33,543 nt of DNA from a virus. The stretch is from positions 1-33,543 of the IMG/VR virus record IMGVR_UViG_3300036861_000374. One strand, 5' to 3'. Under the pieces are notes generated by a model. The model ran no database searches. It saw only the letters and a list, made by a program, of their open reading frames with translations, and was not told the origin of the DNA. Position numbers and translations under genes: made by a program. Each line of letters starts with the position of its first letter. Positions within the stretch are counted from its first letter, which is position 1. Of the stretch, positions 92 through 19,340 are shown in pieces.

Positions 92-586
92 CTATCCGCT
101 CACCATCTCGGTCACATCGAACCGGACCGATGCCTGGCATGTCACCAGCCGGCTTGTGGGAATCATCTGAGGCTCCCGGTACTCCCCCTGGATCCCGAAC
201 TCGCCCTCCCCGGCCTCGAAGATGACCGATGGTGCCCCGAGCTGCCGGTTCGTGCGGATCCGAGCTCGTAGCGAGTCGAGGAAGTCGTCGAACTCGGCCT
301 GCGCCTTCTCGGCATCCGACCGGGAGCGGTAGACAAGCTCCAGCCGGACTGCGTACCGCATCTCTTTGCACCCTCCGCTTCCATTGCTCGTCCCCAGCCG
401 GATCTCGGTGTCCTGATCGAAGAACAGGATCGCCCACCCGAGGTCATGCGCGTTCGTCGGGAACGCAAGGTTGGCGGCCTTGTTGAGGAACGGGGCCGGC
501 GCCCATGCGTACATGACGTCGAGGTGGGCCACGGCCGGGGGCGCGAAGAACGCCGCGATGGCCGAGCGGACGGTAGCCCGGCTCAT
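92..586 (-). CDS. Putative tail terminator / neck protein
   Basis: A 164-residue soluble protein (MSRATVRSAIAAFFAPPAVAHLDVMYAW...). It has no signal peptide or membrane segment. Size, mixed alpha/beta composition and position directly after a head-tail connector fit a tail-terminator or tail-completion protein that caps the tail tube and joins it to the neck. Residues about 80-110 are rich in charged helix-forming residues, and the C-terminal part (FGIQGEYREPQM...FDVTEM) looks strand-rich. ATG at 584-586 overlaps the upstream stop as ATGA, which is why I chose this start over longer readings. I recognise the context better than the sequence, so a different neck role is possible. Confidence 0.55.
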   Translation of the reverse strand: MSRATVRSAIAAFFAPPAVAHLDVMYAWAPAPFLNKAANLAFPTNAHDLGWAILFFDQDTEIRLGTSNGSGGCKEMRYAVRLELVYRSRSDAEKAQAEFDDFLDSLRARIRTNRQLGAPSVIFEAGEGEFGIQGEYREPQMIPTSRLVTCQASVRFDVTEMVSG

Positions 587-1482
587 GGCTTCCTCCACGG
601 GCGCAGCATCTTGCGCGTGTCTGGCGTGAGCGATGGCTGAGGGCCGCCCGGACCGAACGACACGGCAGCGTCCCCGATCTGGGCCCCAGTCGCGTCCACC
701 GGTACATCGGCCAGAGCCTCGACGTGAAGCATGTAGTAGGCCTCCCAGATGATGCGCCGCCGGACAGTCGTGGGCAGCGTGGCGGAGGTGAAGCCCCCGA
801 CGTACGTCACCGTCGCGCGTGGCTGCCATGTCCCCCATGCCGGCGGATCCGTCCAGAAGAAAGGCGCGGGTGTCTCGTCGGGGTCCACGTCCGTGATCGT
901 GAACCGGTCGATCGTCGCCCCTGCGGGCACGGAGACGGAAGTGATGGGCACCGCCGACGGGTGCACGCGGCCCGTCCGGTCGATGAGCAGCGTCTCCGTG
1001 CGCTCCTGCTCCAGAAGCGGACGGCCCAGATACTCCTCGACGAGCTCCTGCGCTTCGATGAGGGCCCCCGAGACCGCCACATCGCTCGAAGTCGTATCGA
1101 GCGTGGCCAGCCGGTACTGCCCGATCGTGACAAGCGGATTGGTTTCCGTGAGCGCCCGCAGATCAGCCCCGATCTCCACTGTGATGTAGCTCTTGTTGGG
1201 GAACGTCTGCTTGCCGGGCGGCCATGTGATCTCGAACTCGGCCAGGAACTCCCCAGGCGTGTCGACGTCGGCGAGCACCCACTGGTACTCGACTGTCCCC
1301 GTCGATCGGGGTTCCACGAAGGCCGCCGCGCTGTCCACCTTGAGTGCCGCAGCAAAGAGGCCACGCATGATGAACCGCACCGACAGGGCAGCGTCCAAGG
1401 GCACCACGGCTCCATTGGCGTCGAGCATGGTCCGGCGGATGGGCGACTGGGTATCGCCGCGCTTGATGAAGAAGTCGGCCAT
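583..1482 (-). CDS. Head-tail connector with BppU-like N-terminal domain
   Basis: A 299-residue protein with two apparent parts. Residues 1-105 (FFIKRGDTQSPIRRTMLD, GAVVPLDAALSVRFIMRG, ending in a strand-rich segment with ITVEIGADL) resemble the BppU N-terminal domain of lactococcal-type baseplate proteins. Residues about 120-299 resemble gp6-like head-tail connectors: an N-terminal helix (ALIEAQELVEEYLGRPLL), the dual-strand middle with TVTYVGGF, a helix (LPTTVRRRIIWEAYYML), and a C-terminal tail ending in LRPWRKP. Connectors of this family form the dodecameric ring below the portal; they are usually 100-200 residues, so the extra N-terminal domain is unusual. The start ATG (1480-1482) shares one base with the preceding stop (TGATG). 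Confidence 0.7.
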   Translation of the reverse strand: MADFFIKRGDTQSPIRRTMLDANGAVVPLDAALSVRFIMRGLFAAALKVDSAAAFVEPRSTGTVEYQWVLADVDTPGEFLAEFEITWPPGKQTFPNKSYITVEIGADLRALTETNPLVTIGQYRLATLDTTSSDVAVSGALIEAQELVEEYLGRPLLEQERTETLLIDRTGRVHPSAVPITSVSVPAGATIDRFTITDVDPDETPAPFFWTDPPAWGTWQPRATVTYVGGFTSATLPTTVRRRIIWEAYYMLHVEALADVPVDATGAQIGDAAVSFGPGGPQPSLTPDTRKMLRPWRKP

Positions 1483-2549
1483 CAGAGAAGCCCTCCAGTG
1501 ACCGCCACAGTGAGCGTGCGCCCAGTCGGCCCCGTGACCCTTGTCGGGTCCCACACGAACGGCGTCTCGGTCTCTCCGGGGATCACCACGCTTGCCACCC
1601 CGGAGCCGCTCGCCATCAGGTCGGCGGCGAGCACGACCGTGACCGTGACCGCCGCCGATCCCGACGAGGACGTGAACCCGATCTCTCCGACGTCGATAGT
1701 CAGGGTGATCGCTGCCGACCCCGACGTGCTCACCTCGCCGATGGCCTCCAGGTTCAGCTCGCCGACGGTCTCGAGGTCCGCCACGCCGGCGGACAATGCC
1801 TGCCCAGCCCCCTCGAGCGGCAGAACCAGATCGGCAACGGCGCTCCCCACGGAAGCCGCGAGGCCCTGAGCCACAAGGTCCCCCGGTGCTTCAAGACCTG
1901 CTGCCCCTGAAGACGACGCGGCACCCTGGGCAGCGAGCGCCCCAGTGACGACGAGACTGCCAGTGCCCGCTCCCGTGGCGAGGCCGGCGCTGGCCGTGGC
2001 CGCAGCCACCGAGAAGGCCCCCGCGCCGTCCGAGGCCCCCAAACCGGCAGACGCTACGGGGATCCCGAGGCCGAGAGCACCAGCGCCAGAGGATGCCCCC
2101 ACGCCGACGGCAGATATCGACACGGGACCGGAGACGTCAGCGATCCCATCGCTCGATGCCGCTCCCGAGGCGGTGAGCGCTACCGTCGTGAGGACGTTGG
2201 CGGACCCACTGGAGGCCCCGAGCCCCGCGGCCCCCAGTGTCGTCGCCACGTCGAGCGCTCCCGAGCCCGACGACGAGGCAAGTCCTGCGGATACCAGCGG
2301 TACCCGCAGACTCAGGTCTCCTGCGCCAGCCGACGAGCCGAGCCCCGCGGACGCGAGCACGGCGAGCACGGACAGCGCCCCCGCACCGGACGATGCGCCA
2401 AGACCGGCGCTCGCCATCGCTGCCGTGGCGAGCAGATTGGCGCCCCCGGAGGACGACGCTAGCCCCTCGGCGACAAGCTGCGGGATCTCAGCAGTCGGAG
2501 TCCTGACGAGCCTGGTATGGCTCGGGAACGCGCGGCCGGTGCGGGCCAT
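1482..2549 (-). CDS. Ala/Gly/Ser-rich 20-residue repeat protein
   Basis: A 355-residue protein built almost entirely of a tandem 20-residue repeat. After a 25-residue leader (MARTGRAFPSHTRLVRTP...), about 15 units follow from residue 26 to about 326, with a pattern close to xSAGLASSSGxAxLxVxxxL. The last about 30 residues (FVWDPTRVTGPTGRTLTV) are not repeats. The same repeat occurs 47 times in the product of 7115-12607, so the two are paralogues. There is no signal peptide or membrane segment. The regular spacing of small residues and alternating hydrophobics suggests short beta strands in a solenoid or fibrous shaft; this is inference. It lies between a beta-sandwich protein and the connector gene, joined to both by TGATG overlaps. 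Confidence 0.72.
   Translation of the reverse strand: MARTGRAFPSHTRLVRTPTAEIPQLVAEGLASSSGGANLLATAAMASAGLGASSGAGALSVLAVLASAGLGSSAGAGDLSLRVPLVSAGLASSSGSGALDVATTLGAAGLGASSGSANVLTTVALTASGAASSDGIADVSGPVSISAVGVGASSGAGALGLGIPVASAGLGASDGAGAFSVAAATASAGLATGAGTGSLVVTGALAAQGAASSSGAAGLEAPGDLVAQGLAASVGSAVADLVLPLEGAGQALSAGVADLETVGELNLEAIGEVSTSGSAAITLTIDVGEIGFTSSSGSAAVTVTVVLAADLMASGSGVASVVIPGETETPFVWDPTRVTGPTGRTLTVAVTGGLL
1577..2474 (-). repeat. 60-bp periodic coding repeat, about 15 units
   Basis: Tandem in-frame units encode 20 residues each within the repeat protein. Units are clearly related at protein level (GLASSSG core) but diverged at DNA level, so they are old or maintained by selection rather than fresh slippage products. 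One unit is 22 residues long (NLEAIGEVSTSG...). Confidence 0.8.
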
Positions 2550-3292
2550 CAGTACACCGCCGCCCTGCTCACGGCCTGAAGCGCTTCAACCTGCGAACGG
2601 CCGCCCGAGCCCCCGAACACAACGACGATCTCGGCATGGTCCCGGGACGTGATGGTCAGGTCCCAGGTCTGCGCGCCGGCGGCGTCGACCGACTTGGCCT
2701 GCCCGACGATCCGCTGGTTGGAGGCGGCGGTGCCGCTCGTCGTGGCGAGGCTGGTCAGCGTCTCCCACGTCCCGCTCGTCGTGTCGGAGTCGTACGTGGT
2801 CGCGTCCCCGGCCGGGCCCTCTCTCGCGCACGCGCCGTAGACGAGCTGGTTCCCGGCGGTCGGCGAGATGGAGATCGAGACGGTCGCTGAGCCGGCGTTG
2901 CCCGTGACCGCCGCGACCGCAACCGGGTTGCCCTGGTCGATCCCTGTCCATTCCTCGATGACGATGGCCTTGGCCACCGGGTTGCCGGCCCCCCACGTGA
3001 ACGTCACGAGGTCGCCGGTCAGCAACTGGACGTTGACGAGCGCGTAGGCGATGTAGCAGGTCGCCCCGGCGTTGGCCGCCCCGGGGTCCTGCAAGGCCGG
3101 GCCAAGCTCGATCCAGGTGTTGCCTCGCGCGTCCGTGACCGTGAGCCCAGGCGCCGCACCGCCGCTCCCGGAGTTGTCGACGGCCACGCGGGCGATCAGG
3201 AGGTTCCCGGGCGCCGTGTCGGCCGTGATCGTCACGGTCGTGGACGCCTGCCCGGTGAGGTTCTGCGTGCTCCCCCGGTCGCCGATCTTCAT
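2549..3292 (-). CDS. Beta-sandwich surface protein, paralogue of a module in the giant repeat protein
   Basis: A 247-residue strand-rich protein. It matches residues about 430-650 of the 1830-residue protein (7115-12607) along its length: shared blocks include LIARVA.DNSG.GGAA, DPGAAN, VIEEWTGI, DSDTTSGTW.TL and QTW..TITSRD. It therefore represents a single module of that protein encoded as a separate gene. The fold is probably a jelly-roll or Ig-like sandwich exposed on the virion; the ligand is unknown. The start ATG at 3290-3292 overlaps the previous stop as ATGA. A much longer reading upstream of this ATG overlaps the 61-residue gene and has non-phage-like composition, so I reject it. Confidence 0.7.
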   Translation of the reverse strand: MKIGDRGSTQNLTGQASTTVTITADTAPGNLLIARVAVDNSGSGGAAPGLTVTDARGNTWIELGPALQDPGAANAGATCYIAYALVNVQLLTGDLVTFTWGAGNPVAKAIVIEEWTGIDQGNPVAVAAVTGNAGSATVSISISPTAGNQLVYGACAREGPAGDATTYDSDTTSGTWETLTSLATTSGTAASNQRIVGQAKSVDAAGAQTWDLTITSRDHAEIVVVFGGSGGRSQVEALQAVSRAAVY

Positions 3293-3474
3293 CCGACCCT
3301 CACCGCCGGGCCCCTGGGCAGGGCGAGTCCCCGCTTGTCGGTCGGGACGACGGTCTTGCCCGTCACGGCCGGGAACACCTCGCCCCGGCGGGCGACGAAC
3401 GGGGTGGCCGCCACGTTGCCCTGGCCCATTCCCGTGACCTCGCCTCGCCTGCTCTTCGCTGGATCGGCCGGCAT
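3289..3474 (-). CDS. Small hypothetical protein
   Basis: A 61-residue basic protein (MPADPAKSRRGEVTGMGQGN...LPRGPAVRVG) with no recognised motif. It is coupled on both sides: its ATG (3472-3474) overlaps the stop of the beta-helix gene as TGATG, and its TGA overlaps the next start as ATGA. These precise overlaps and a frame filling the gap between two clear genes are the main support. Confidence 0.6.
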   Translation of the reverse strand: MPADPAKSRRGEVTGMGQGNVAATPFVARRGEVFPAVTGKTVVPTDKRGLALPRGPAVRVG

Positions 3475-4925
3475 CACACGACCACCGGGGAAGTGAACCA
3501 GGCCTTGCCACTGCCGGCACCGGCTCGGTTGACCAGCCGCACCGTGACCCACGATCCGCCAGTCGGCGTGAACTGGCTGAAGGTCATCGTCAGCCACACG
3601 TCCGTGACCGCATCCGCCGTGAGCGTCTGGGCCGTCACGCCGACCTCCCCGTTGGCGAGGAGTTGGACCTGCGGCGGAGTCGTCGTGCCGTGGTTCGTGT
3701 CGTACTGGATCTGCAGGCTGATCGACGTCCCCACCGCGGCCACGGGGATCTGCAGATCCTGGTCCCCGGGCCCATCGATGCGGTACGAGATGGGACTGGT
3801 CGACGAATCCAGGACGGCCGTGTCGTGCCGCTCCAGCGCCCCCACGGCCTTCAGGGTGGATTGCCCGCCGGCCGGCCGTGGGCGGTTGGAGAAGTCGACG
3901 GCGGGCCCGTTCGCCGAGTTCCCGAAGCCAAGGAGCACCGAGCCTGGCATCGGGGTGCAGAACGGACGAAGCTGGAACCCCGACAGCACTTGCTGGCCCA
4001 TGTGGATGCCCACGGCATATGCCGTCTTCGAGTTGCTGCCCGCCGTGACCCCCACCCGTGGCGTCGGGCAGTTGAAGAGGTTCCAGTCCTCGCTGATCGT
4101 CCCGGAGTCCGTCTGGAGTCCCGTTGCCGTCAGGATCAGGCTGTTCTCGACGACGCAAGCCACCATGCCCGCCTGGTCCGGGCCCACGTACATCGCGTAC
4201 GCGGAGCCGAGCATCGTGCAGTTGTAGACCTTGACCCCGCCGCCCCGGAACGTGCCCGAGCCCCCGTCACGGTTGACGTCGATGAGGTCGCCCGAGCTGC
4301 TCCCCGGGCCCATGATGCAATTGCGGAACACTGCGTTCATGTCCCAGCTCGCCGTGGCGGACGCGTCGACGGCGAACTGGATCATGTAGGCGCTCCCGAG
4401 CCCAGACACGAAGCGGCAGCGGTCGAACATCCAGTTGAGCACCTTGCCCGCGGTGGCGTGGATCCGCATGAGTCGCTCGGCCTCCCAGGCGAAGAAGAAG
4501 CAGTCCTCGAACGTGATGTCGTTGCCGGCGTTGGTTCCACCGGAGAGCACCGTCGGGGATCCGGTTCCGCCCTGGATCGAGAGGTTGCGAAACGTCAGGA
4601 AGTTGGTGCCGCCGAGAACCAACGCTGTAGAGGCGGAGGGCGCAGTCACGTCGTCCGTCGTGTAGGCCGTGAGCAGCACCTGACCGGGGTCGCCCGTGTT
4701 AGCCCCCGTCACGTCGCCAGCTATAATCTGCTCCGCGGTAGGGTTCGTCATGCCGACTGAGGTTGTCTCACGGTACACGCCGCCGCCGACCCACACGGTG
4801 TTCGTAACGGTTGTATCCGCTATCCCGGCGGCTCCGAGGGCCTTGCCGATCGTCGCCCAGGCCGCGCTCGGCGACGTGCCAGCGTTGGCGTCGCTGCCAT
4901 TTTTGCGGACGTAGTACGTGGCCAT
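3474..4925 (-). CDS. Right-handed beta-helix surface protein
   Basis: A 483-residue protein. The N-terminus (MATYYVRKNGSDANAGTSP...AWATIGKAL) is the typical opening of DUF1565-like parallel beta-helix proteins (YYV...GSDANAGTS.A.W.TI..A). Residues about 80-300 contain recurrent short strand/turn patterns (ITFEDCFFF, MFDRCRFVSG, VFRNCIMG, VYNCTMLG, VVENSLIL), as expected for successive helix rungs. Residues about 365-480 form a separate strand-rich C-terminal domain (SYRIDGPGDQDLQIPVAA...WVTVRLVNRAG). Such proteins on virions are often receptor-binding or polysaccharide-degrading, but I see no catalytic signature. There is no signal peptide, unlike the other beta-helix gene nearby. Confidence 0.75.
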   Translation of the reverse strand: MATYYVRKNGSDANAGTSPSAAWATIGKALGAAGIADTTVTNTVWVGGGVYRETTSVGMTNPTAEQIIAGDVTGANTGDPGQVLLTAYTTDDVTAPSASTALVLGGTNFLTFRNLSIQGGTGSPTVLSGGTNAGNDITFEDCFFFAWEAERLMRIHATAGKVLNWMFDRCRFVSGLGSAYMIQFAVDASATASWDMNAVFRNCIMGPGSSSGDLIDVNRDGGSGTFRGGGVKVYNCTMLGSAYAMYVGPDQAGMVACVVENSLILTATGLQTDSGTISEDWNLFNCPTPRVGVTAGSNSKTAYAVGIHMGQQVLSGFQLRPFCTPMPGSVLLGFGNSANGPAVDFSNRPRPAGGQSTLKAVGALERHDTAVLDSSTSPISYRIDGPGDQDLQIPVAAVGTSISLQIQYDTNHGTTTPPQVQLLANGEVGVTAQTLTADAVTDVWLTMTFSQFTPTGGSWVTVRLVNRAGAGSGKAWFTSPVVV

Positions 4926-5263
4926 CAGGTGGAGGCACTCGTACGCCGGCTCTTTTCGAGAGCGCGGCGACCCTTGTCTGTGATCTCAACCCGCATCGGC
5001 ATGCCGCGCTGGCTGTAGACCACCAGACCTACCTTGAACAGCGCCCTGGTTGTCCGCCAGTGAACGGCGGGCCAAGGGCCGAGAACATCGCCCGTGCGCA
5101 GTGCGGAGTACTGTCCGGGACCATGAGTAAGCAGTTCAAGGGCGTATCGCATCTTGGGCGTCAAGCGGTAGGGTTGCTCCGCTACCCACTGGTCCCAGAT
5201 GGCGTCACGCGTAGCCGTGTCGTTGAGCGGCACACCTTCCATCCGTTCGGCCAGCGTCGTCAT
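4925..5263 (-). CDS. Winged-helix-like small protein
   Basis: A 112-residue protein. Residues about 30-100 look like a winged helix: RLTPKMRYALELLTHGP, a helix pair (VHWRTTRALFKVGLVVY), and a wing ending in VEITDKGRRALEKSRR, the standard close of MarR/PadR-type domains. A DNA-binding-type protein inside a block of surface proteins is out of place. It might be a regulator of the late genes, or a small domain reused for protein contacts. It is joined to both neighbours by TGATG overlaps, so it is translated with the two beta-helix proteins. Confidence 0.6.
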   Translation of the reverse strand: MTTLAERMEGVPLNDTATRDAIWDQWVAEQPYRLTPKMRYALELLTHGPGQYSALRTGDVLGPWPAVHWRTTRALFKVGLVVYSQRGMPMRVEITDKGRRALEKSRRTSAST

Positions 5264-6648
5264 CAGTCCACGCTCCCCAAGAGGTCATGGCCGTAGCCCT
5301 GCCACTGCGCCCAGGTCTTCGGACTCCCCAGCCACTGCCACCACGCGCCGGCCGGATCGGGGACGTGGTAGTGATTGCCGGCGAACGTGACCGTCCCGGC
5401 GGTGAAGATCGCGCTCGTCCCGCCGCAGCAGACCAGGAGCCCCGAGGCGTTGGCGGCCATGGTCACGTCGTTGTCGTGGATTGCCACGGAGGCGATGCCT
5501 CCGGGGCAGTCGGTGGATTCCCGGCCCTGGTGCCACACGACGATGCCGCCGGCCGTAGAGGGAGCCTGGACGGTGTTCCCCCACACGTCGGCGTTGCGGG
5601 AGTCGACGACCTGGAGTCCGTCGCCCCCGTTGTTCGTCGAGGTGTTGTTGCGGATCGTGACCGTGCAGTCGACCTCGCTCACGATCCCGATGCCGGTCTG
5701 GTCGTGCACGGTGTTCCCCTCCACGAGGGCCCCGTCGTTGCCCGTGTCGAGCCACAGGCCGTTCCCGACGCCACCCCCGAGGATGTTGTTCCGCACGGTG
5801 AGGTTGACCGTCCGGGCCCACTTCGTGGCGTCGCCCGTGTCGTTGAAGAGCAGATGCTGATTGCCCGTGATCTCGTTGTTCTCGAACCGGTTGTTGGTCG
5901 ACCGGTAGCCGCCCATCCCCGTGGCGCCGTTGTCGAGCGCCTTGCTGTTGATGACGGCGATCGCGTCGTAGTCCGCTGCGATCGCCGTACCGTGAACCTG
6001 CCGTACCGTGACCCCATCGAGTGTCCACCGGACCCCTGGTTTGGCCGCCCCCCACGAGATCGTGTTGGCGATCTTCTCGAACGTCAGGCCCTCCACGCGC
6101 ACGTCTGTGGCCGGGTAGTTGCCACCGATGGCCCCGGGCGAGACCGACGCCTCGAAGGTATGGCCGACAGGGGAAGCTCCGATCCAGATGCGGTCGGCGG
6201 CGTAGTCGAAGAACCACGTGTCGGCCGTGACCGCAGCCCGGCTCCCCACGCGCGAGAGCCACTGCCCGTCGCGGTAGAGCCACTCGTTGTAGTTGCACAA
6301 GTTCGCCGTGAAGCAGGAGCCCTCCGGCGGCGTCTGTTGCGTCTGGCCATTCTTGTACCACTTGCCGGCCGAGAACCTCCAGCCCATGAGCACCTTGGCC
6401 CCCGAGACGATCGTCCCCGGCTCCCCGTGGAGCACCTGCCCCGTCTTGGGCAGCAGGCGCTCGGTGATCCGCCACGTGCCCGCAGAGAGGCAGAACGTCG
6501 TCCCCTCCGGATAGGCGTCGAACGTCGCCTGGAGGCTCATGGCCGGCGTCACCGACATACCGACGCACCCCTGTGCTCGAGCGGGGGCGGGCAGCATGAC
6601 GAGCATCATGAGCACGGCAAGGGCGAGAGCCACGGCGGACCTCCTCAT
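5263..6648 (-). CDS. Right-handed beta-helix protein with Sec signal peptide
   Basis: A 461-residue protein starting MRRSAVALALAVLMMLVM, a classical signal peptide: Arg-Arg, a 15-residue hydrophobic core and a PARA/Q cleavage site near residue 26. The mature part has many NN-type beta-helix rungs (NRFENNEITGN, LTVRNNILGG, ALVEGNTVHD, VTIRNNTSTNNG, DVWGNTVQA, VAIHDNDVTM), typical of NosD/pectate-lyase-like helices. Cys residues (SCFTANLC, CCGG) could form disulfides after export. Substrate unknown. I chose ATG at 6646-6648 because it overlaps the upstream stop as ATGA; an ATG three codons earlier (6657) is the alternative. An exported protein in a virion gene block is odd. Confidence 0.75.
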   Translation of the reverse strand: MRRSAVALALAVLMMLVMLPAPARAQGCVGMSVTPAMSLQATFDAYPEGTTFCLSAGTWRITERLLPKTGQVLHGEPGTIVSGAKVLMGWRFSAGKWYKNGQTQQTPPEGSCFTANLCNYNEWLYRDGQWLSRVGSRAAVTADTWFFDYAADRIWIGASPVGHTFEASVSPGAIGGNYPATDVRVEGLTFEKIANTISWGAAKPGVRWTLDGVTVRQVHGTAIAADYDAIAVINSKALDNGATGMGGYRSTNNRFENNEITGNQHLLFNDTGDATKWARTVNLTVRNNILGGGVGNGLWLDTGNDGALVEGNTVHDQTGIGIVSEVDCTVTIRNNTSTNNGGDGLQVVDSRNADVWGNTVQAPSTAGGIVVWHQGRESTDCPGGIASVAIHDNDVTMAANASGLLVCCGGTSAIFTAGTVTFAGNHYHVPDPAGAWWQWLGSPKTWAQWQGYGHDLLGSVD

Positions 6649-7115
6649 TCGTCCCATACCAAAGTTGCCCGGCAGTCAACAGCGGTCATCGTCCCAGTTC
6701 CGTCGTTAACGACTCTGATCCCCAGCCGGGAGCCAGCGGCGGCGCCCACCGGCTCCCGGCCGAGAGGCCACTGGACGACGATCAGCCCGCCGTTGGTGGT
6801 CAGGTAGCCGCTCGTCAGCACTTCGACGGAGGTGGGTTCCGCACTCAGGGCGGTAAGCCCCGTCCAGCTCGCAGGGCCCTCCGCGGGGTCGTACTTGATC
6901 ACGACCCCCGTCGTGCCCGCCGGAGAGCCCAAGGTGACTGTCCGATAGAGCTCGAAGGCAATATCCGTCTGCGAGGCCGTGGATCCGAACGAGAGCCATG
7001 CTTCGATGAGCCGGCCTTTGTCCGTGACGGGATTGAGCAGGACCAAGCTCTTCACCGCAGCCGCAGCGAGAGCCCCGGTAGTGACCTTGCCCGTAGACAT
7101 CGAGTACTGAGCCAT
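6645..7115 (-). CDS. Strand-rich virion-associated protein
   Basis: A 156-residue protein (MAQYSMSTGKVTTGALAAAAV...) predicted to be mostly beta. It contains RLIEAWLSFGSTASQTDIAF, a PLGREPVGAAAGSRLGIRV block and an acidic C-terminus. This arrangement recurs in small phage structural proteins near fibre genes, which I recognise as a type but cannot name. ATG at 7113-7115 overlaps the stop of the giant repeat gene (TGATG). It may be a fibre cap, adaptor or decoration subunit. Confidence 0.55.
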   Translation of the reverse strand: MAQYSMSTGKVTTGALAAAAVKSLVLLNPVTDKGRLIEAWLSFGSTASQTDIAFELYRTVTLGSPAGTTGVVIKYDPAEGPASWTGLTALSAEPTSVEVLTSGYLTTNGGLIVVQWPLGREPVGAAAGSRLGIRVVNDGTGTMTAVDCRATLVWDE

Positions 7116-10100
7116 CAATTCCCCCCAGGGTTACCCATCACGGATGTCCGCCCGGTTCCATCGCTCACGCTGGACTGCCCGGATGGCCCGCTGCTCTTCG
7201 TCGGATGACCAACATACGGCCGAGCGAACCGCGCTGCTCCGAGGGTCGACGCAAGCCCGCTCCCCATCAACGCAAGGGTCAGGGTGGCGGTAGCGGAAGA
7301 GGTTGACGTTGCCGCTCCGACTCCGCCGAGCCTGATCTCCAGGATGAGCGCTGCACTGCCGGACGAGGAGACCAAGACCGGGGCCTGCAGGGGCTCCGAT
7401 ACGACGAGGTCCGCTTCCCCCGCCGCGGCGGCAAGACCTTGTGCTCCCAACACTGCCGGGATGGCAAGGCTCGCAGCGCCCGCCGAAGATGCAAGCGCCG
7501 CCGCTTCGAGCGGAAGAGCGACCAGCGTAAGTTCGGCCGACCCGGCAGAGGAGGCAAGCCCGACCGCTTCGATGGCTCCGGCCCCCGGGATCTCCATGGC
7601 CGCCGAGCCGGACGACGAGGCGAGGGCGCCCGCAACAAGCTCCGCTCGGACAGCCGTCGATGCCATTCCCGAGCTTGACGCCAGTCCAACTCCCGTGAGA
7701 GCGGCCGACACTGCCGCGATGGCACTTCCCGACGAGGAAGCCGAGGCCGCTGCCTCCAGCACGGCGCGGGCATCGAGCGCCCCCGCTCCCGCCGAAAACG
7801 CAAGCCCCGACGCCGCGAGAACGGCCGTGGTCGCAAGACCGGCGACACCAGAGGACGACGCCACCCCAGTCGCCGCGAGCGTGGCCGTGACCACCACAGC
7901 GCCAGTGCCGGCTGAAGACGCAAGGGCCGCTGCCGCAACCGTCACCCCGGCCACCAGGGTCGCGGCCCCCGAAGAGGAGGCGACTCCAATGGAACTCAGC
8001 GGGGCGATGACTGCAAGGCTGGCCGCACCGGACGACGAAGCGGCCCCCGCCGCCCGCATGTCGACCGCTACGATCAGGGGGGCCGAGCCGCTGGACGTCG
8101 CCAGCCCGAGCCCTTCGAGGTCCCCGGGCACCTCCAGGCCGGCCACTCCGCTCGACGAGGCCAGCCCCGCAGCAGCGAACGTCCACGTCGCAATCAGGCC
8201 GGCCGCCCCGGCGCCAGCAGCGAGGCCTGAACTCGCAAGGCCGGAGACGACATGCAGATCTCCAGCGCCAGAGGACGATGCCACCACGGCCCCCGTCAAT
8301 CCAGCAATCAGATCGGCGCTCGCGGTGCCCGAAGAGGCGGCCGATGCACTCGCAACCAGCCCAATGGAGAGGAGCGCGTCGGCCACTCCAGAGGAGGACG
8401 CCACCCCGGCAGCCGAGAGGTCGGCGGACATCACGAGGGCCGCACTGCCGTCCGAGGATGCAAGGCCGGAGGAGACAAGCGCCGACGTCGCTGCGAGCGA
8501 TCCGGCACCGGCACTTGCGGCAACACCCGAGCCCGCCAGTGTGACCGCCGTGAGCACAGCCGCAGACCCATCGGACGCCGCCAGCCCCGTAGCAGCAACC
8601 GGCAAGCCCAGGGCGAGCCCTGCAATACCGGAGGAGGAAGCCAGCCCCGTACCCGCGAGTGGGACGGCAAGCTCCAGTGCTCCGAGCCCCGAAGAGGCAG
8701 CCATCCCGTCCGAGACCAGACGGACCTCCACCAGCACGGAGGCGGCCCCCGACGAGGACGCAAGGCCAGTCGCTTCGGTGCGAATGGGCGCCGTCACGTC
8801 GGCCGTGCCCGTGCTCGCTGCAAGCCCCGTGGCTATGAGCACGACGCCCACCATCACGTCGGCGGTACCGGAGGAAGCCGCAACCCCCGACGCGGCTAGT
8901 GGGAGCAGGACGCCGATCGTTGCGGAACCGTCGGACGCGGCCAGCCCGGCCGTAGCCAGCGGCGTGCGGAGTCCAGCGTCGGCTTGGCCAGACGACGATG
9001 CGACGCCCGTCACCTCCAGTGTGATCGCTGTCGTCAGGGTCCCGGCTCCAGCCGACGAGGCGAAACCGGTGGCCGTCAGGGTGGCCGAGACGAGGAGGTC
9101 GGCACTGCCGCTGGATGACGCAAGCGCTGCAGAGGCGAGCGAGAGAGTCTGGACTATCGCCCCTGTCCCCAACGAGGAGGCAACGCCGACCGCCACGACC
9201 TCGTAGGCAACCTGGAGAGTCGCCGCTCCACCGCTCGCAGCCAGTCCCGTCGCTTCGAGGGGCGGGAGCGCTCCGAGCAGCGCGCTTCCGCTGGAGGACG
9301 CAAGCCCAGTCTCCGCGAGCGGCATCTCCAGGCGCAGAGCAGCCGTACCCGCGGAGGATGCGAGACCGTCGGCCGCCAGCGGTTGCACGACGGCCCCCGT
9401 GGATGCCCTCACCTCTGCGGCGACGGTGCCCCACAGCCCGGCCGGACCCGTGGCGTCAACCGTCTCGTCGTTGGTGGCGCGCTCGGATGCGATTGACTGG
9501 ACGGGGGCCGCGCTGGCGGAGACGTCCTGCCCGATGATCGTGAAGTTCTGGCCGGCGGTGAACGTCCCGTCCACGTCGACCGCCATCACGGCCACGGCAA
9601 CGTTGTTGGTCGACACGAACGCCGGCAGCGTCGCCGCTATCGCCGTCCCGTTGCCCGAGGCCGTGATGGCCGAACCCTCGATCAGATCCGTCGGGTCGTG
9701 GTTCGTCGCCTCGAAGATGGTCCATCCACAACCGACGACCGCCTCCGTGGGCGTGATCGTAAGGACGCCGGTCGATGTGGAGGTCGGGATGCCGACGAAC
9801 AGGAAGATGCCCCGCCGTGTCCCCGCCGTGTCGAATTCGATCCCACCGAGCGAGGAGAGGGAGACGCCAGTCTTGGAAAGCGTCGGCGTCAGCACCGCGG
9901 CCGTGTCAGCGACGAGGACGCCGACGAACAGCGGCCGATCCACGGTGGAAGTGAACGAGGCCGTGTCGTACGAGGTGGCGTTGGCGTCGGAGATATCCGT
10001 CGTCAGATGAGCGATCAGCGCCGGGGCGCCACCAACCAGCCGGGCCACTGCCGCCCCAGATGACGACGCGAGCCCGGAGGCTGCGAGCGGGAACAGAAGG

Positions 10101-12607
10101 TTCGCCGCCACCGCACCAGACGAAGAGCCCATCCCCGTTGCTGTGAGAACGGACCCCACCAGGACCGCTCCAGTGCCGGACGACGATGCCAGCCCCGTGC
10201 CCTCGAGCACGACGCCGACCAGCAGGCCGGCGGTACCGGAAGACGAGGCAAGGCCGGCAGATGCCAGGACGACTCCGGTCAGCAGATCAGCAGATCCCGA
10301 CGAGGACGCGAGGCCCGCAGACGCGAGCGGCATGGTCAGGTTCGCTGCGCCAGTGCCAGACGACGAGGCGAGGCCAGCCGATGCTATGGGGATCAAGTCA
10401 CCTACGGCCGCCGTACCGGACGAGGATGCAAGGCCGACGGACGCCACGGGGAGCAGAGTCCCCAGGGCCGCAGTGCCGGAGGACGATGCCAGGCCCGCAG
10501 ACGCTACGGGGATCAGGTCGCCGACTGCGGCAATCCCCGATGAGGACGCCAGTCCGGCCGCAGCGAGGACATGCGTGACAACGCCGCCCGGAAGCTCGAA
10601 GTTGGCCCACGAGACCTGCGCCCGGTTGGTCGAGACAGCCTTGGCGATGGCGAAGGCCACGGCCGCCCAGTCCCGCGAGGTGATAGTCGGATCCCAGGTC
10701 TGAGAGCCCCCGGCCGAGACCGCCTTATAGGCCCCCGCTGTCTTCTGGTTCAGGTCGGCCGTGGCGTTGGATCCGCCGATGACCGTGAGCGTCGCCCAAG
10801 TGCCGCTCGTGGTGTCCGAGTCCTCCGTGTAGGAGTCGCTCCCCGGACCCTCGATGGCCAGCGCGCAGTAGACGACATTGCTCGCTGCCTGCGGGTCACG
10901 CGCGATGGACGGCGTTGCGGATCCGCCCGTCGCCGTGGTGGCCCCCTGCGCCTCCGGGACCGTGGCGTGGATCCCCGTCCACTCCTCAATCACAACGGAG
11001 TCGGCCACGACTGCCCCTGAGTAGGTGACGGTGATCGAGTCGCCGTTCGAGTAGGCGTTCGCCACCTTGGCGTAGGCGATGGTGCAGGTCGTGCCCTCGT
11101 TCGCCGCCCCAGGATCCCGGTTGGCTTGCGTCAGGACCGTCCAGGAGTTGCCCCGTGGGTCGGAGATCGTCACGGTTCGTGCGGCCCCGCCCCCGCCAGA
11201 GTTGTCCGCCGCCACCCGAGCGATGAGATAATTGCCCACCGTGATCGATCCACCGGCCGACATGGACACGGCCGTGGTCGTGCTGCTCGCTGTATCCGCC
11301 ACGGATCCCCGGTCCGCTACCTTGGACGGAGCCCCGCCCGTGACCGTGGGCACGAACCGCAGGCGCAGGTCGGCGTAGTTCGTGATCGAGTCGGCCTGAC
11401 CGGAGGTGAGTGTCTGGTCCTGAGTCGTCCAGGTTGTGCCGATGCCGGAGTGCACCCACGACGCGATCTCGGTCGCATCGCTCTGCCGCAAGCTCACCGT
11501 CAGGTCGACGGTGTCGGCCGCGTTCAGCTTGCGATAGCGATAGTGGACGATATGCCCGGACGACGAGACGGGATCCACTCGTGCCTCCACGGCCGTCTCG
11601 TAGTAGCTGCTCGAGTCGGCATTCGCTGGAGACTGCACGTAATCGGTGTCCGAGGCTGTCGTCTCGTCGATGGCCGCGTAGAGACTGGTCGTGCCCCCGG
11701 TGTCCGTGGTCCAGGAGTTGACCGAGACATCCGACCAGGGATTGAGGATCGCGTCCGACGACACGGGGGCCACCGTGATCGCAGCCGTCCCGGACGACGA
11801 CGCCAAGCCGGCAGAATCGGCTGCCCACTTGGCCGTGAGCCCCGCCGTGCCGGAGGAAGAAGCCAGGCCGGCCGCGTCGAGAACCGGGGCACCCGCGACT
11901 ACCGGGCGCTCCGCGCGCAGCACGGGGTACCCGTACGAGAAGATCGGCACGCTGTTCGTCGACACCGAGGTCCCCGTGATGGCCGTCTGGTTCGCGCCGC
12001 CACCGGTCATGTCGATGACGTTCTGCGCCGTGTCCGACTGGTCGAGCAGCCACAGGCCGGCCGGCGAGAGGGAGAGCCAGGCCATGAGAGAGAACGGGAG
12101 AGTCTCTACCTGAGCGTCGGTCAGCACAGAGGGGAAGATCCCGGCGAGCGCTATGTCTCCGTCGAAGGAATCGAATCCGTTGAAGATGGAACCTATCTCG
12201 ACGGTCGTGGTGGTCTGGCCACTGCCGTCGATCATCGTCCCGGCGGCGTCCTCGTGCGTCCACGTGTTCGTGTCGTAGACGTAGAGGTGGAAGCGGGGCG
12301 TGGTGGTCCCCGAGGTCTTCCCGGCTGCCACCAGGACCCAGTTCGACGCGACGGGGACGGTGAATGTCGACACCTGAAAGACATTGGCGCCATTGACCGA
12401 GAACTTGAGCTTGTTGGTCGTGTCCTGCCACTGCATCATGGCACTGACGTCGGTCGAGTAGTTCAGCCCCACGATCGAATGCTGGCCGCCCACGCTGGCG
12501 CGCTTGCAGATGCCGACGAAAGTCCGGTTCCCAGCGTCGGTCAGCGTCAGGGCCCCGGGAGTGAACCGGATCCGAGTGGCGCTCGCCCGGACAAAATTGC
12601 GAGCCAT
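7115..12607 (-). CDS. Giant modular repeat protein with LamG-like lectin domain (virion fibre / adhesin candidate)
   Basis: A 1830-residue protein, the largest in the window. Modules in order: residues 1-230 a LamG/concanavalin-A-like sandwich (RASATRIRFTPGALTL..., FHLYVYDTNTWTHED, IGSIFNGFDSFDGDIALAGIF); about 242-280 two 20-residue repeats; 281-420 a beta-sandwich (WSDVSVNSWTTDTGG...VEARVDP); 429-650 a module also encoded alone at 2549-3292; about 680-860 nine repeats; 860-1069 another sandwich (DANATSYDTASFTS...EVRAS); about 1077-1800 an unbroken array of 36 repeats; and a C-terminal tail (YVGHPTKSSGPSG). The repeat core is GLASSSGxAxL. There is no signal peptide or membrane segment, so it is likely a virion protein: a long shaft bearing carbohydrate-binding heads. 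It abuts the upstream TAG stop directly. Confidence 0.8.
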   Translation of the reverse strand: MARNFVRASATRIRFTPGALTLTDAGNRTFVGICKRASVGGQHSIVGLNYSTDVSAMMQWQDTTNKLKFSVNGANVFQVSTFTVPVASNWVLVAAGKTSGTTTPRFHLYVYDTNTWTHEDAAGTMIDGSGQTTTTVEIGSIFNGFDSFDGDIALAGIFPSVLTDAQVETLPFSLMAWLSLSPAGLWLLDQSDTAQNVIDMTGGGANQTAITGTSVSTNSVPIFSYGYPVLRAERPVVAGAPVLDAAGLASSSGTAGLTAKWAADSAGLASSSGTAAITVAPVSSDAILNPWSDVSVNSWTTDTGGTTSLYAAIDETTASDTDYVQSPANADSSSYYETAVEARVDPVSSSGHIVHYRYRKLNAADTVDLTVSLRQSDATEIASWVHSGIGTTWTTQDQTLTSGQADSITNYADLRLRFVPTVTGGAPSKVADRGSVADTASSTTTAVSMSAGGSITVGNYLIARVAADNSGGGGAARTVTISDPRGNSWTVLTQANRDPGAANEGTTCTIAYAKVANAYSNGDSITVTYSGAVVADSVVIEEWTGIHATVPEAQGATTATGGSATPSIARDPQAASNVVYCALAIEGPGSDSYTEDSDTTSGTWATLTVIGGSNATADLNQKTAGAYKAVSAGGSQTWDPTITSRDWAAVAFAIAKAVSTNRAQVSWANFELPGGVVTHVLAAAGLASSSGIAAVGDLIPVASAGLASSSGTAALGTLLPVASVGLASSSGTAAVGDLIPIASAGLASSSGTGAANLTMPLASAGLASSSGSADLLTGVVLASAGLASSSGTAGLLVGVVLEGTGLASSSGTGAVLVGSVLTATGMGSSSGAVAANLLFPLAASGLASSSGAAVARLVGGAPALIAHLTTDISDANATSYDTASFTSTVDRPLFVGVLVADTAAVLTPTLSKTGVSLSSLGGIEFDTAGTRRGIFLFVGIPTSTSTGVLTITPTEAVVGCGWTIFEATNHDPTDLIEGSAITASGNGTAIAATLPAFVSTNNVAVAVMAVDVDGTFTAGQNFTIIGQDVSASAAPVQSIASERATNDETVDATGPAGLWGTVAAEVRASTGAVVQPLAADGLASSAGTAALRLEMPLAETGLASSSGSALLGALPPLEATGLAASGGAATLQVAYEVVAVGVASSLGTGAIVQTLSLASAALASSSGSADLLVSATLTATGFASSAGAGTLTTAITLEVTGVASSSGQADAGLRTPLATAGLAASDGSATIGVLLPLAASGVAASSGTADVMVGVVLIATGLAASTGTADVTAPIRTEATGLASSSGAASVLVEVRLVSDGMAASSGLGALELAVPLAGTGLASSSGIAGLALGLPVAATGLAASDGSAAVLTAVTLAGSGVAASAGAGSLAATSALVSSGLASSDGSAALVMSADLSAAGVASSSGVADALLSIGLVASASAASSGTASADLIAGLTGAVVASSSGAGDLHVVSGLASSGLAAGAGAAGLIATWTFAAAGLASSSGVAGLEVPGDLEGLGLATSSGSAPLIVAVDMRAAGAASSSGAASLAVIAPLSSIGVASSSGAATLVAGVTVAAAALASSAGTGAVVVTATLAATGVASSSGVAGLATTAVLAASGLAFSAGAGALDARAVLEAAASASSSGSAIAAVSAALTGVGLASSSGMASTAVRAELVAGALASSSGSAAMEIPGAGAIEAVGLASSAGSAELTLVALPLEAAALASSAGAASLAIPAVLGAQGLAAAAGEADLVVSEPLQAPVLVSSSGSAALILEIRLGGVGAATSTSSATATLTLALMGSGLASTLGAARFARPYVGHPTKSSGPSGQSSVSDGTGRTSVMGNPGGN
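7200..9377 (-). repeat. 60-bp periodic coding repeat, 36 units
   Basis: The longest of the repeat arrays. Units encode 20 residues with the pattern [AV]xxGLASSSGxAxLxVxxxL. Nearly all keep exactly 60 bp; two are slightly longer. Third-position divergence between units is high. Confidence 0.85.
10030..10570 (-). repeat. 60-bp periodic coding repeat, 9 units
   Basis: A second array in the same gene. Units here are more alike than in the long array: several share the stretch ASAGLASSSGTA, which suggests more recent duplication. Confidence 0.85.
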
Positions 12608-13132
12608 CTACGTCGTTAGGTACTCGAGGGTGGCCGCGATGACCTCCATGTCCCCCGTGGCCGTGTCGCTGGCGTTGGCAGCATCCCGGGCGAGGTAGGC
12701 GATCACGTAGTCGTTGGCTGCCACCGAATCGGCGTTCGTGAGGGTCAGGCTGATCTCGTCGATGTAACCGGCCGTCGCCGGCACGGCCGTGGCACTAGAG
12801 GTGTTCGCAGCCGCAAACGCCTTGGCATCCACGTCGGTAGCGTCCCCGTCCGACACGGCCGCCAGGCGTCCCTCGATGATGACGTTCCCGGAGGTGGCCG
12901 AGGCCATCTTGTACTGCACCTTGAGCACCGGGCCACTGGCATAGTCGACGGGCATGCGAAAGCTCCACATGACCATCTCTTTCGTGGCGGCATCGAACGC
13001 GAGCTGGAGAAAGTGAGGGCTCGGGGCGGCGGCCGATGACTTCGTGCGCTGGAGTGCCGGGGCGGCATTGCTCGCCGAGCCGTCGGGGAGGACTGCGGCT
13101 CCGGGCGAGAGCATGATGCTGCCGGTTGCCAT
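12608..13132 (-). CDS. Putative virion structural protein
   Basis: A 174-residue strand-rich protein (MATGSIMLSPGAAVLPDGSA...). Central segments (FLQLAFDAATKEMVMWSFRMP, VLKVQYKMASATSGNVIIEG, DEISLTLTNADSVAANDYVIAYLARD) read as alternating strands of a jelly-roll-like domain. I recognise the type from phage head/fibre regions but know no function. TAG (12608-12610) directly abuts the start of the giant gene, so this may be the base or chaperone of that fibre. Confidence 0.6.
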   Translation of the reverse strand: MATGSIMLSPGAAVLPDGSASNAAPALQRTKSSAAAPSPHFLQLAFDAATKEMVMWSFRMPVDYASGPVLKVQYKMASATSGNVIIEGRLAAVSDGDATDVDAKAFAAANTSSATAVPATAGYIDEISLTLTNADSVAANDYVIAYLARDAANASDTATGDMEVIAATLEYLTT

Positions 13133-13536: not shown

Positions 13537-13953
13537 TTAGACCGTGAAGCTAAGTGAAAACGCCCCGATGGCGATAGTTGCCGAGTCCCCATTGCCCGGA
13601 GTCTTGGAGGTCGTCAGCGTCCACCAGGCGTACATCTCGGTGGTCGGGTCGACGGTGCCGGCCGCCGCGAGCACCAGCTCAGCGTGCGTGATAGTGGCGC
13701 CCGTGCCGGCCGTGAACGGGCCAAAGGTGATCAGCGCCGTGTTGGACGTCACTGGGGGATCGGCAGCCGTCGGAGCCGTGAAGACGATCGCCTGACGCGC
13801 GTAGCCCGTGGCCCCATACTCCGTGCCAATGGTGGAGTCCGTTGGTGCCGTCGTGCAGAGCACTACTTCTGCCGAGTACGTCGCCGGAGCCGCCCGTCCG
13901 GTCACGGCGTCGAGCGCCCTCTGTTTGCCCAGCCGTGAGAACTGGCCGGCCAT
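13537..13953 (-). CDS. Putative virion fibre/decoration protein (GYARQ family type)
   Basis: A 138-residue protein with the pattern of a widespread small phage protein: an N-terminal helix (GKQRALDAVTGRAA), a strand listing CTTAPTDSTIGTEYG, the block GATGYARQAIVFTAP, then NTALITFGPF, ATITHAELV and a C-terminal strand (TIAIGAFSLSF). Members are often annotated as tail fibre or head decoration proteins; their exact site on the virion is not settled. TAA and a 1-bp gap separate it from the gene upstream. Confidence 0.6.
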   Translation of the reverse strand: MAGQFSRLGKQRALDAVTGRAAPATYSAEVVLCTTAPTDSTIGTEYGATGYARQAIVFTAPTAADPPVTSNTALITFGPFTAGTGATITHAELVLAAAGTVDPTTEMYAWWTLTTSKTPGNGDSATIAIGAFSLSFTV

Positions 13954-15485: not shown

Positions 15486-16751
15486 TTACCAACTAATTGT
15501 CCCTTCAACGAAAAAATCGGGTCTGAAAATCCCAAGCCCAATTCTTTCTTCCGCCAAAATTGCGATTTTATTTTCGATAAAGTAGCTCGCGTGCTGGTTC
15601 CCTGCCCGGATGACAGTTTGCTGCCGGTCAAAGATGGCAGCGCCCAACCGGCCGGAGCCCACCAAGAACTTGAGCGCTTCCATGGCCGGGGTCCTGATCG
15701 GCGTCAGGCCGTAGACGGTGCTCGGAGCCGTCCCGTACGGCACACCGGTCCCAAAGCCAGCGTCAAACTGCGTGCTGTGCCGCGTCGTGACCATGAGCCA
15801 GAAGTCCGTCGGATTCATGGCCAGGAAGTCGGCCTCGCCGTCGACAAGCTCGATCTTGCCGATAGCCCGGCCGATCCCGGCGGCCGCCTCCCCAGCGCCC
15901 ACGGACGCGATGGTCTGGAGGCCGACTGTCTGGCGGATGCCCCGGAGATCGGGCGACACGCCGTTCCCGTTCAGGATCTCGGCCTCTTCGCGGAAGGCGA
16001 GCATGTAGCCGAGACGGCGATCAATGTAGCCCCGGAGCGTGGGCGCGTCGTCGATGATCTCCGTCGTCACCGGAATCCACGCTGCGATCTTGCGGATCGG
16101 AGCATCGGCGGCGACGAACTGCATTGTCACCTCGGGCTTGGCCACGCCTTCGGCCACGCTGGAGGCCCCCGTCTGGTTCGTGGCGGGGTTCAGCTCCCGA
16201 ATGTACGGAACCGAGTTCAGCGTGGTCGAGATGACCGAGAGCACGTCCCGGATGAACATGCGCTGCTCGCGCGGCACGGGCGGCATAGGGGTCCCACGGG
16301 GCATCCACAGGCCCGCTGCGGGGTCCGTCTGTGCCGTGTCGAGCAGGGTCCGATACTCCGCGCTGGGCAGAGCATGACGCCACTCGATGAGGTTGTTGGC
16401 CTCGATGTCCGGGAGGTTGCCACCCACGTAGGTGCCGTGATTGGCGTAGTGCTCGTGGGCCGTGTAGATCTCGCCCGGTGAGCGGTACTCGTAGCCGTCG
16501 TTCCCCGTGCGGGCCATCGCGGCCCGGGGGCCCTTCGGTGCTTCTGGGGGCTCGGGGCCACGCTCGTAGGCGATGAGGATGGCGTCGAGGTGATTGATCG
16601 AGCGCGTGGCCTCCCGGACGTCGTCTTCCCAGGTATCGGAGCGGTCCTCGGGGGCCGTGCTGCGGAGCTCGTAGAGCTTGTCGCCAGCGGCGAGCAGGTC
16701 CGACCGGACCTCGGACGCGGGCGGACGTTCGTCAGTCGTCGCTGCTGGCAT
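15486..16751 (-). CDS. HK97-fold major capsid protein
   Basis: A 421-residue capsid subunit. Residues 1-110 are charged and helix-rich (SEVRSDLLAAGDKLYELR...), a delta/scaffold-like region likely removed by the prohead protease. The HK97 core follows: P-loop and spine motifs (VPREQRMFIRDVLSVISTT, SVAEGVAKPEVTMQF, IAAWIPVTTEIIDDAPTL, REEAEILNGNGVSPDLRGI), the A-domain segment with DFLAMNPTDFWLMVTTR, and the C-terminal RAGNQHASYFIENKIAILAE and ERIGLGIFRPDFFVEGT. AGGAGG precedes the ATG by 8 nt. From about 15595 to the stop the codons turn AT-rich (ATT, TTT, AGA, AAA), unlike the rest of the gene, although the protein pattern is intact. Confidence 0.92.
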   Translation of the reverse strand: MPAATTDERPPASEVRSDLLAAGDKLYELRSTAPEDRSDTWEDDVREATRSINHLDAILIAYERGPEPPEAPKGPRAAMARTGNDGYEYRSPGEIYTAHEHYANHGTYVGGNLPDIEANNLIEWRHALPSAEYRTLLDTAQTDPAAGLWMPRGTPMPPVPREQRMFIRDVLSVISTTLNSVPYIRELNPATNQTGASSVAEGVAKPEVTMQFVAADAPIRKIAAWIPVTTEIIDDAPTLRGYIDRRLGYMLAFREEAEILNGNGVSPDLRGIRQTVGLQTIASVGAGEAAAGIGRAIGKIELVDGEADFLAMNPTDFWLMVTTRHSTQFDAGFGTGVPYGTAPSTVYGLTPIRTPAMEALKFLVGSGRLGAAIFDRQQTVIRAGNQHASYFIENKIAILAEERIGLGIFRPDFFVEGTISW

Positions 16752-17515: not shown

Positions 17516-18058
17516 TCACGGCTTGGTGGCGAGGATCGCGCACTGCCACGGGGCGAGCGAAGGGTTAGGCCACATCGGCGGCGTGATCTCTTCCACCGAC
17601 ACCAGCTCGGTCACTGGCAAGCCGATGCCTCGCTGAACAGCGATGAGCGTCAGGAGCGCCGTGGGGGTCCACTCATGGCCGAGGCCCGGCATTTCCGGAG
17701 TCGGATTGGCGATGATGTCCCGGAGCAACCATCTCGGCTGTCCGGTGCGGATGGCAAGCTCGATACATGGCCCCACGACGGCGAGCGAGCCCCCCGGAGC
17801 CAGCACGCGCCAGCACTCGGCAATGACCTGGGGGACCTGCGCGTAGGGGAGGTGCTCGAGAACATGCCCAGCATACGCTTTGGAAAACGATCCGTCAGGA
17901 AGCGGCAACCCCTCGAGCACGTCCACCATGAGATCCGGCCGGCGCTTGTGGTGGGGCAAGTCGTACTTGTCGACGTTCAGCCAGCCCTCGGCATAGTGGT
18001 TCCCGGGGCCCAGATTCAGGCGCTTGGTGTCCAAGACAGGCGTGACTACGACGGCCAT
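17516..18058 (-). CDS. SAM-dependent methyltransferase (class I, type 11-like)
   Basis: A 180-residue Rossmann-type methyltransferase. Motif I is degenerate but clear (RLNLGPGNHYAEGWLNVDKY), followed by the acidic strand end (DLMVDVLEGLPLPDGSF), AYAGHVLEHLPYAQVPQVIA and WRVLAPGGSLAVVGP, the standard order of Methyltransf_11 proteins. Small phage members act on sugars, lipids or peptides rather than DNA; the substrate is unknown. Neighbours (glycosyltransferase, dioxygenase) suggest glycan or small-molecule decoration. I chose ATG at 18056-18058 with GGAGG 7 nt upstream; a GTG two codons earlier (18064) overlaps the previous stop and is also possible. Confidence 0.75.
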   Translation of the reverse strand: MAVVVTPVLDTKRLNLGPGNHYAEGWLNVDKYDLPHHKRRPDLMVDVLEGLPLPDGSFSKAYAGHVLEHLPYAQVPQVIAECWRVLAPGGSLAVVGPCIELAIRTGQPRWLLRDIIANPTPEMPGLGHEWTPTALLTLIAVQRGIGLPVTELVSVEEITPPMWPNPSLAPWQCAILATKP

Positions 18059-18060
18059 CC

Positions 18061-18231
18061 TCACTCCTCCCTCAGCACTCTCTCGATGATGTCCCTATCC
18101 CCGGAGTCCAGCGGCGTCTCCCCACTATCGAGGTACAGCGTCTCCTCGTCGAGGAAGTCGGGACCCGGTGCATGTTCCTTCAGCACACGGCGCATGATCT
18201 TCGCCAGCCTGGCATCGTCGTCAGTCTTCAT
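18061..18231 (-). CDS. Small acidic hypothetical protein (56 aa)
   Basis: This frame encodes MKTDDDARLAKIMRRVLKEH followed by 36 residues rich in Asp and Glu, ending in IIERVLREE. It looks like two amphipathic helices around an acidic loop. The ATG overlaps the stop of the dioxygenase gene as ATGA, and its TGA lies just before the methyltransferase start, so it is a coupled member of the operon. Function unknown. Confidence 0.6.
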   Translation of the reverse strand: MKTDDDARLAKIMRRVLKEHAPGPDFLDEETLYLDSGETPLDSGDRDIIERVLREE

Positions 18232-19049: not shown

Positions 19050-19336
19050 GGGGCTTCGTCCCCCGCTGCCCTCGCTGCCATCTCCATGCGGATGCCGCTC
19101 AATTCCAAGCGCATTCGGTCTAGTTCCTCCGCCCAGGCTTGCACTCGTCGCGCATACCGCTCCTCTGCCCCCCGCAAGAAATCCTCCTTGGCAGTCTGAA
19201 TGACTCGCTCAGCGCGCTCTGACCACTTGTTGGCAAGACTCGACTCTAGGCCACGCCGGAGCCATCGCGCGTAAACGGCTAATGCGATCACAATAAACAG
19301 CAAGACGCTGTTGCTCGCAATCAAGAAACCCCTCAT
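19046..19336 (-). CDS. Membrane-anchored coiled-coil protein
   Basis: A 96-residue protein with one N-terminal membrane segment (residues about 4-22, FLIASNSVLLFIVIALAVYA) followed by a basic stop (RWLRRG) and a long charged helix to about residue 90 (EDFLRGAEERYARRVQAWAE...RMRLELSGIRMEMAARAAG). The topology resembles inner-membrane spanin or superinfection-exclusion proteins, but there is no partner gene nested inside it. Function unknown. It lies 4 bp downstream of the glycosyltransferase and overlaps the dioxygenase gene. Confidence 0.6.
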   Translation of the reverse strand: MRGFLIASNSVLLFIVIALAVYARWLRRGLESSLANKWSERAERVIQTAKEDFLRGAEERYARRVQAWAEELDRMRLELSGIRMEMAARAAGDEAP

Positions 19337-19340
19337 GATC

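Follow-up and report, generated by a model that had tools for sequence, protein, structure and literature searches.

A 20-residue repeat array as the putative shaft of adhesion fibres encoded between phage capsid and head-tail adaptor genes

Two proteins encoded on the minus strand of a 33,543-base virus record (the whole of which was analysed and is here called the window) share one 20-residue repeat unit, and we propose that they are parts of an appendage of the virion. Its likeliest form would be an adhesion fibre at the capsid or head-tail neck, with the repeat arrays as shaft or spacer. This reading, drawn from sequence, structure models and analogy, is one that we hold at about even confidence; the arrays would probably act as the stiff spacing element in fibres close to where capsid and tail join. 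As a system, the operon appears to encode a variation on adhesion appendages already described in phages, and as a repeat class, the unit appears to be both uncatalogued and common.

The larger of the two is a giant protein of 1830 residues (7115..12607, read from 12607 to 7115), for which the original prediction had given the right coordinates and length; the strand is minus. Unit tiling yields 47 units in three arrays, the same 36, 9, and 2 that had been counted before. From the N-terminus, the protein comprises a Laminin-G-like (LamG) domain (residues 1-230; 11918..12607), array 1 with 2 units (residues 241-280; 11768..11887), beta domain I (residues 285-440; 11288..11755), beta domain II (residues 445-672; 10592..11275), array 2 with 9 units (residues 679-858; 10034..10573), domain III (residues 860-1072; 9392..10030), and array 3 with 36 units (residues 1075-1797; 7217..9385), all on the minus strand. 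Pieces of beta domain I are 48-58% identical in a compared locus (L004), and beta domain II is 46% identical to a stretch of the same locus and 52% identical to another ORF of the window (2549-3520). Domain III, a non-repeat stretch, had no match to the other domains compared.

The unit reads G-L-A-S-S-S-G-x-A-x-L-x-V-x-x-x-L-x-A-x. Across 59 units, with those of the second array protein included, the most constant positions are G1 (51/59), A3 (52/59), S5 (55/59), and G7 (58/59), accompanied by conserved L/V at position 2, A/G at 9, hydrophobic residues at 11 and 13, and L/V/I at -3. The interval between units of the giant protein is exactly 20 residues in 42 of 44 cases (the exceptions are 22 and 21), which bears out the earlier statement that the period is almost always 60 bp. 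Residue identity at a lag of 20 in the long array is 0.363, compared with 0.147 +/- 0.012 in shuffles (maximum 0.175), and a two-unit DNA pattern with 60-bp spacing had 14 matches in the window, where dinucleotide shuffles gave an expectation of 0. DNA identity between units is low, as had been noted: adjacent units share 0.33-0.72 of their bases, and TRF reported only 4.3 copies at period 60. Between units, identity is 0.32 at third codon positions and 0.57 at positions 1 and 2, and at sites with the same residue the codons agree at 0.297, close to the 0.314 expected from the codon usage of the gene. Synonymous sites between units are saturated. With codon identity at the chance level, what is conserved is the protein pattern; the claim that the 20-residue spacing is under selection is supported. 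Recent DNA duplication does not explain these figures, while old duplication followed by purifying selection on the protein pattern accounts for both the third-position drift and the codon choice. We attribute the long antisense ORFs over the arrays to the G+C content of about 67-70%.

A beta-solenoid is the fold that we favour for the arrays. The AF2 model of nine units of array 3, built on a 10-row alignment, reached moderate confidence (pLDDT 70, pTM 0.60) and placed its strands roughly at positions 3-10 and 14-19 of the unit, and a model of the complete second array protein repeated the pattern over most of its length at low confidence (pLDDT 56.5, pTM 0.47). Both models thus have two strands per 20 residues. 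A 29-row superfamily alignment was left out of the folding because MAFFT had shifted its register. In Foldseek searches with the nine-unit model, the best interpretable PDB neighbours were the putative adhesins 3lyc, 4opw, and 3ljy (TM about 0.5-0.67, probability up to 0.99), which we take to be of the DUF2807 type; some are beta-helical, but they stand at E of about 0.1 or worse and at 11-17% identity, and predicted structures of unnamed Caudovirales proteins scored similarly. Neither model had a PDB match at E<0.001, the PDB search with the second gave nothing useful, and a sequence profile found nothing in the PDB. The solenoid put forward in the original prediction stands as a plausible fold, the nine-unit monomer being solenoid-like at moderate confidence.

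The same strand-turn-strand unit would also fit an intertwined homotrimeric beta fibre, whether triple-beta-spiral-like or a new trimeric fold, in which the repeats would make up the shaft of the trimer. Phage and adenovirus fibres are usually trimers, and the low confidence of the longer monomer is what the wrong oligomer would give. However, the nine-unit monomer folds regularly at its pTM of 0.60 and resembles beta-helical adhesins, and the unit of 20 residues is unlike the 15-residue repeat of the adenovirus shaft; unit length (a period of about 15 in the adenovirus and reovirus shaft) also speaks against a triple beta-spiral as such. We consider a trimeric shaft unlikely, at something like one chance in four.

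The beta-solenoid arrays that we favour are embedded among virion genes. On the one strand, the order runs from terminase (named by eye) through a portal or head morphogenesis protein (22629..24797; phrog_2662, E=4e-82), the major capsid protein (15486..16751; phrog_10, E=8e-35), a Gp80/head protein family member (13537..13953; PF23140, E=4e-15; phrog_240, E=9e-10), and a 174-aa protein (12608..13132; phrog_34856, E=1e-5) to the LamG-array protein. It continues, with several start/stop overlaps, through a 157-aa protein that overlaps the stop of the giant gene (6645..7118), a right-handed beta-helix (pectin-lyase-like) protein (5263..6657; PF13229, E=1e-18), a 483-aa protein that is weakly tail-fibre-like (3474..4925; phrog_32409, E=0.067), and a stand-alone copy of beta domain II (2549..3292; 52% identity over 210 aa, start inferred within the ORF). 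Next comes the second array protein (1482..2549; 355 aa, recognized by tiling), an addition to the original prediction, which has at least 12 clear units, identical in type to those of the giant protein, along with degenerate ones. Directly downstream of it lies the head-tail adaptor with its BppU_N-like N-terminal domain (583..1482; phrog_442, E=9e-11; start inferred at 1482), the two genes overlapping in a sense TGATG. The arrays of the window thus sit between the capsid and adaptor genes, co-oriented with those for portal, capsid, head protein, and adaptor, and the virion-gene context proposed earlier is supported. The beta-helix protein starts with a signal-peptide-like stretch (MGRMRRSAVALALAVLMMLVMLPAPARAQ), which is unusual in a virion protein.

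A similar placement recurs among relatives. The adaptor family phrog_442 was carried by 14 of the 41 records searched, 13 of which also had the array pattern; in 9 of these 13, the array lay within 3.1 kb upstream of the adaptor on the same strand, and in the other 4 it lay elsewhere. Uniform placement would give 0.6, and 9 was reached in none of two million simulations, a probability that serves only as a guide since the 3.1 kb limit was chosen after the distances had been seen and the set includes short contigs and records that are not wholly independent of each other. The array falls between capsid and adaptor in six records (the window, G009, G020, G021, G032, and G038) and, among the others that carry capsid, adaptor, and array, upstream of the capsid in two (G011 and G022) and elsewhere in two (G014 and G030). 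This arrangement points to the capsid or neck region more than to a classical tail fibre.

A classical distal tail fibre or tail-tip component, whose gene had been displaced into the head-neck module, would explain why the array lies far from the adaptor in two records (G014 and G030) and why two loci (L027 and L176) fuse it to the minor tail protein phrog_837 (E=2e-34 and 4e-41). These fusions indicate that some members of the repeat class are tail parts. For the proteins of the window, a tail fibre is nonetheless improbable given the position before the head-tail adaptor, both here and in most adaptor-bearing relatives, and given the conserved order of the LamG genes.

That conserved order bears on the orientation of the proposed capsid or neck fibre. 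Residues 1-240 of the giant protein match Laminin_G_3 (PF13385) at E=2.2e-4, with a score of 21.9 bits that falls short of the curated cut-off (27.6). The same profile is matched by 3 of 4 aligned members, at best with E=8e-17, which lends support to the LamG-like head of the original prediction. The LamG domain of loci L112/L113 is 44% identical over 226 aa and occupies the same place in the gene order, but a repeat of another kind, some 18 residues long (FAGSLTPAGALVRQTAKS), comes after it. In L112 and in MW202554 (ctLwi270), the LamG gene follows a homologue of the 174-aa protein, as in the window; MW202554 further shares the order of the 174-aa homologue, LamG (concanavalin-A-like lectin), and a polygalacturonase-like gene, but its LamG protein has 263 aa and no array. 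Because these relatives share LamG and not the array, LamG is the conserved N-terminal part, and because phage fibres usually attach through the N-terminus, it may serve as anchor instead of tip, with the array projecting outward, or the fibre may be oriented the other way round. The carbohydrate-binding modules named earlier are candidates: they would correspond to the Laminin-G-like domain and to beta domains with no assignment. Two further features of these relatives may be recorded: a signal-peptide-like stretch (MRLLLAILAFFYLADPVWA) opens the LamG protein of MW202554 too, and in L112:3527-3955 and in L113, a different repeat of about 18 residues (AGSLTPAGALVRQTAKSF) replaces the 20-residue array behind the LamG domain.

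A cultured likeness is found in the haloarchaeal siphovirus HRTV-25, whose gp7, a LamG protein of 1569 aa with S/T/A/G-rich stretches, immediately precedes the BppU_N protein gp8. The adaptor of the window is 36-37% identical to gp8 (37% over the first ~110 residues of the adaptor), and gp8 matches BppU_N at 1.2e-8, although Pfam did not call BppU_N directly on the window adaptor itself. HRTV-25 differs in that the repetitive part is too degenerate for a 20-residue unit to be seen by eye and the genes are located before the terminase. In lactococcal neck passage structures (NPS), BppU-like domains are modelled as a neck collar bearing fibres that end in carbohydrate-binding modules (CBMs) or beta-helices, and an NPS CBM on its own shows weak binding to host cells (PMC6669499, PMC10747895). 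The likeness of the window to the NPS of TP901-1 and the 936 phages would lie in accessory adhesion fibres at the neck, here predicted from gene order, a BppU_N-like collar domain, and CBM or beta-helix modules (PMC6669499, PMC10747895). In the NPS, however, a single polypeptide carries BppU_N N-terminally and often has a coiled-coil shaft, whereas in the window the BppU_N-like domain is on the adaptor, the giant protein begins with LamG, and the shaft would be a 20-residue beta repeat. On the capsid, HFTV1 bears turrets with a proposed carbohydrate-binding module (PMC12494034). By analogy, we infer that the window operon encodes a head or neck adhesion device with the arrays as spacers.

The mechanism that we propose extends this inference to fold, oligomeric state, virion location, glycan binding, and docking. 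Each unit would contribute two short beta strands split by an S-S-G turn and would probably stack as a single rung in an extended beta-solenoid; the reach of the fibre would then be set by the length of the array. The Laminin-G-like domain and the interposed beta domains would serve in anchoring, glycan contact, or both; the beta-helix proteins encoded alongside in the operon may act on surface polysaccharide by binding or cutting it; and the BppU_N-like domain of the adjacent adaptor could be the docking ring.

The unit also occurs well beyond this protein and belongs to a large G-hyd-A-x-x-x-G repeat class that is widespread in viral contigs of uncultured phages. A three-unit DNA pattern with 60-bp spacing matched at least 118 stretches in viral contigs, which left at least 56 ORFs of 77-1744 aa after unrelated types had been removed; a position matrix counted at least 594 units in these ORFs and the window. 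One contig (IMGVR_UViG_3300036792_000096) carries exact-type units in a 315-aa ORF immediately before its adaptor, while in another of its ORFs the array lies ahead of a domain of the minor tail family phrog_837 (E=2e-34). In L117, the array is joined to LamG (E=7e-17). Among the early viral matches, GVAVGSGV, PEGFAP leucine-rich, and ALSLGCALAI reading frames were discarded as unrelated, and 74 pattern matches in genome contigs, inspected as short stretches, looked antisense or short-period and none was convincing.

The original prediction had called for a profile check, and Pfam, PHROGs, and NCBIfam gave no match over the array of the giant protein; the arrays of relatives were likewise without a match in family libraries save for one serine-rich hit far below cut-off. 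We found no description of the repeat in the open-access literature. A tblastn search of the giant protein, L182, and L011 against cultured phages returned no match and is uninformative owing to low-complexity masking.

Even spacing is preferred within the class. Against at least 99 candidates at 20 aa among all loci compared, a spacing of 19 aa gave 16 stretches and 8 candidate ORFs, of which few were similar; at 21 aa there were 117 stretches, mostly collagen (93 ORFs were assigned to it); and 22 aa gave 94 stretches and 50 candidates, including a marine 22-residue type (GLAGTGGLGSLTATGIANTSVT) that shares the motif and alternating pattern of the window unit and is two residues longer. Class periods are thus mainly 20 and 22 residues, with 19 and non-collagen 21 rare, although the ratios are only indicative since the 20-aa counts are lower bounds and the loci were partly selected for 20-aa spacing. 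A collagen-like fibre was rejected: Gly does not occupy every third residue of the unit, and the collagen matches separate at 21 aa. Intervals other than 20 between 14 and 27 within ORFs were even in 81 cases and odd in 28. Strands with beta alternation would be expected to favour periods of 20 and 22 over 19 and 21, in agreement with these counts. This even spacing across relatives, together with the strict 20-residue register, the position-specific G, A, L/V, and S-S-x-G, and the regular strands predicted by AF2, would be unexpected in a flexible low-complexity linker of the silk or elastin kind, lacking a fixed fold and conserved by composition, which we regard as very improbable despite the modest pLDDT and a long array that is 86% Ala/Ser/Gly/Leu/Val/Thr, with no Cys and few charged residues.

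More broadly, we suggest, with somewhat less than even confidence, that beta-solenoid repeats of 20 or 22 residues make up a large, uncatalogued class which supplies phage adhesion devices in general with a modular shaft, exchanged among capsid or neck fibres and tail proteins, with the number of units as the length setting. Catalogues of the neck and capsid fibres that aid phages in finding hosts are poor. Provided that the class is real and structural, a single profile would suffice to annotate many giant phage proteins now listed as hypothetical and would identify adhesion devices in metagenomes, and the repeat would offer a designable, length-tunable beta scaffold.

Several loci combine repeats with other modules. 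In L175:1079-3838 (+), the array is interleaved with BNR/sortilin-type propeller repeats, and in L152:2986-6318 (+), the array protein ends with what is probably a glycoside hydrolase domain of family GH16, a weak match that narrowly misses the Pfam cut-off (E=2e-4). L004:6030-8450 (+) encodes an 806-aa protein of AIAIGxxAxASG repeats that resembles trimeric autotransporters (YadA-type) and adjoins a match to the head-decoration family phrog_2647. Lastly, ORFs that by eye are methyltransferase-, dioxygenase-, and glycosyltransferase-like occupy the stretch of the window (17516-20480, minus strand) that separates the capsid gene from the genes on the portal side, and might modify virion proteins; glycosyltransferase-like ORFs, again by eye, also occur near the LamG-type genes of L004 and L112.
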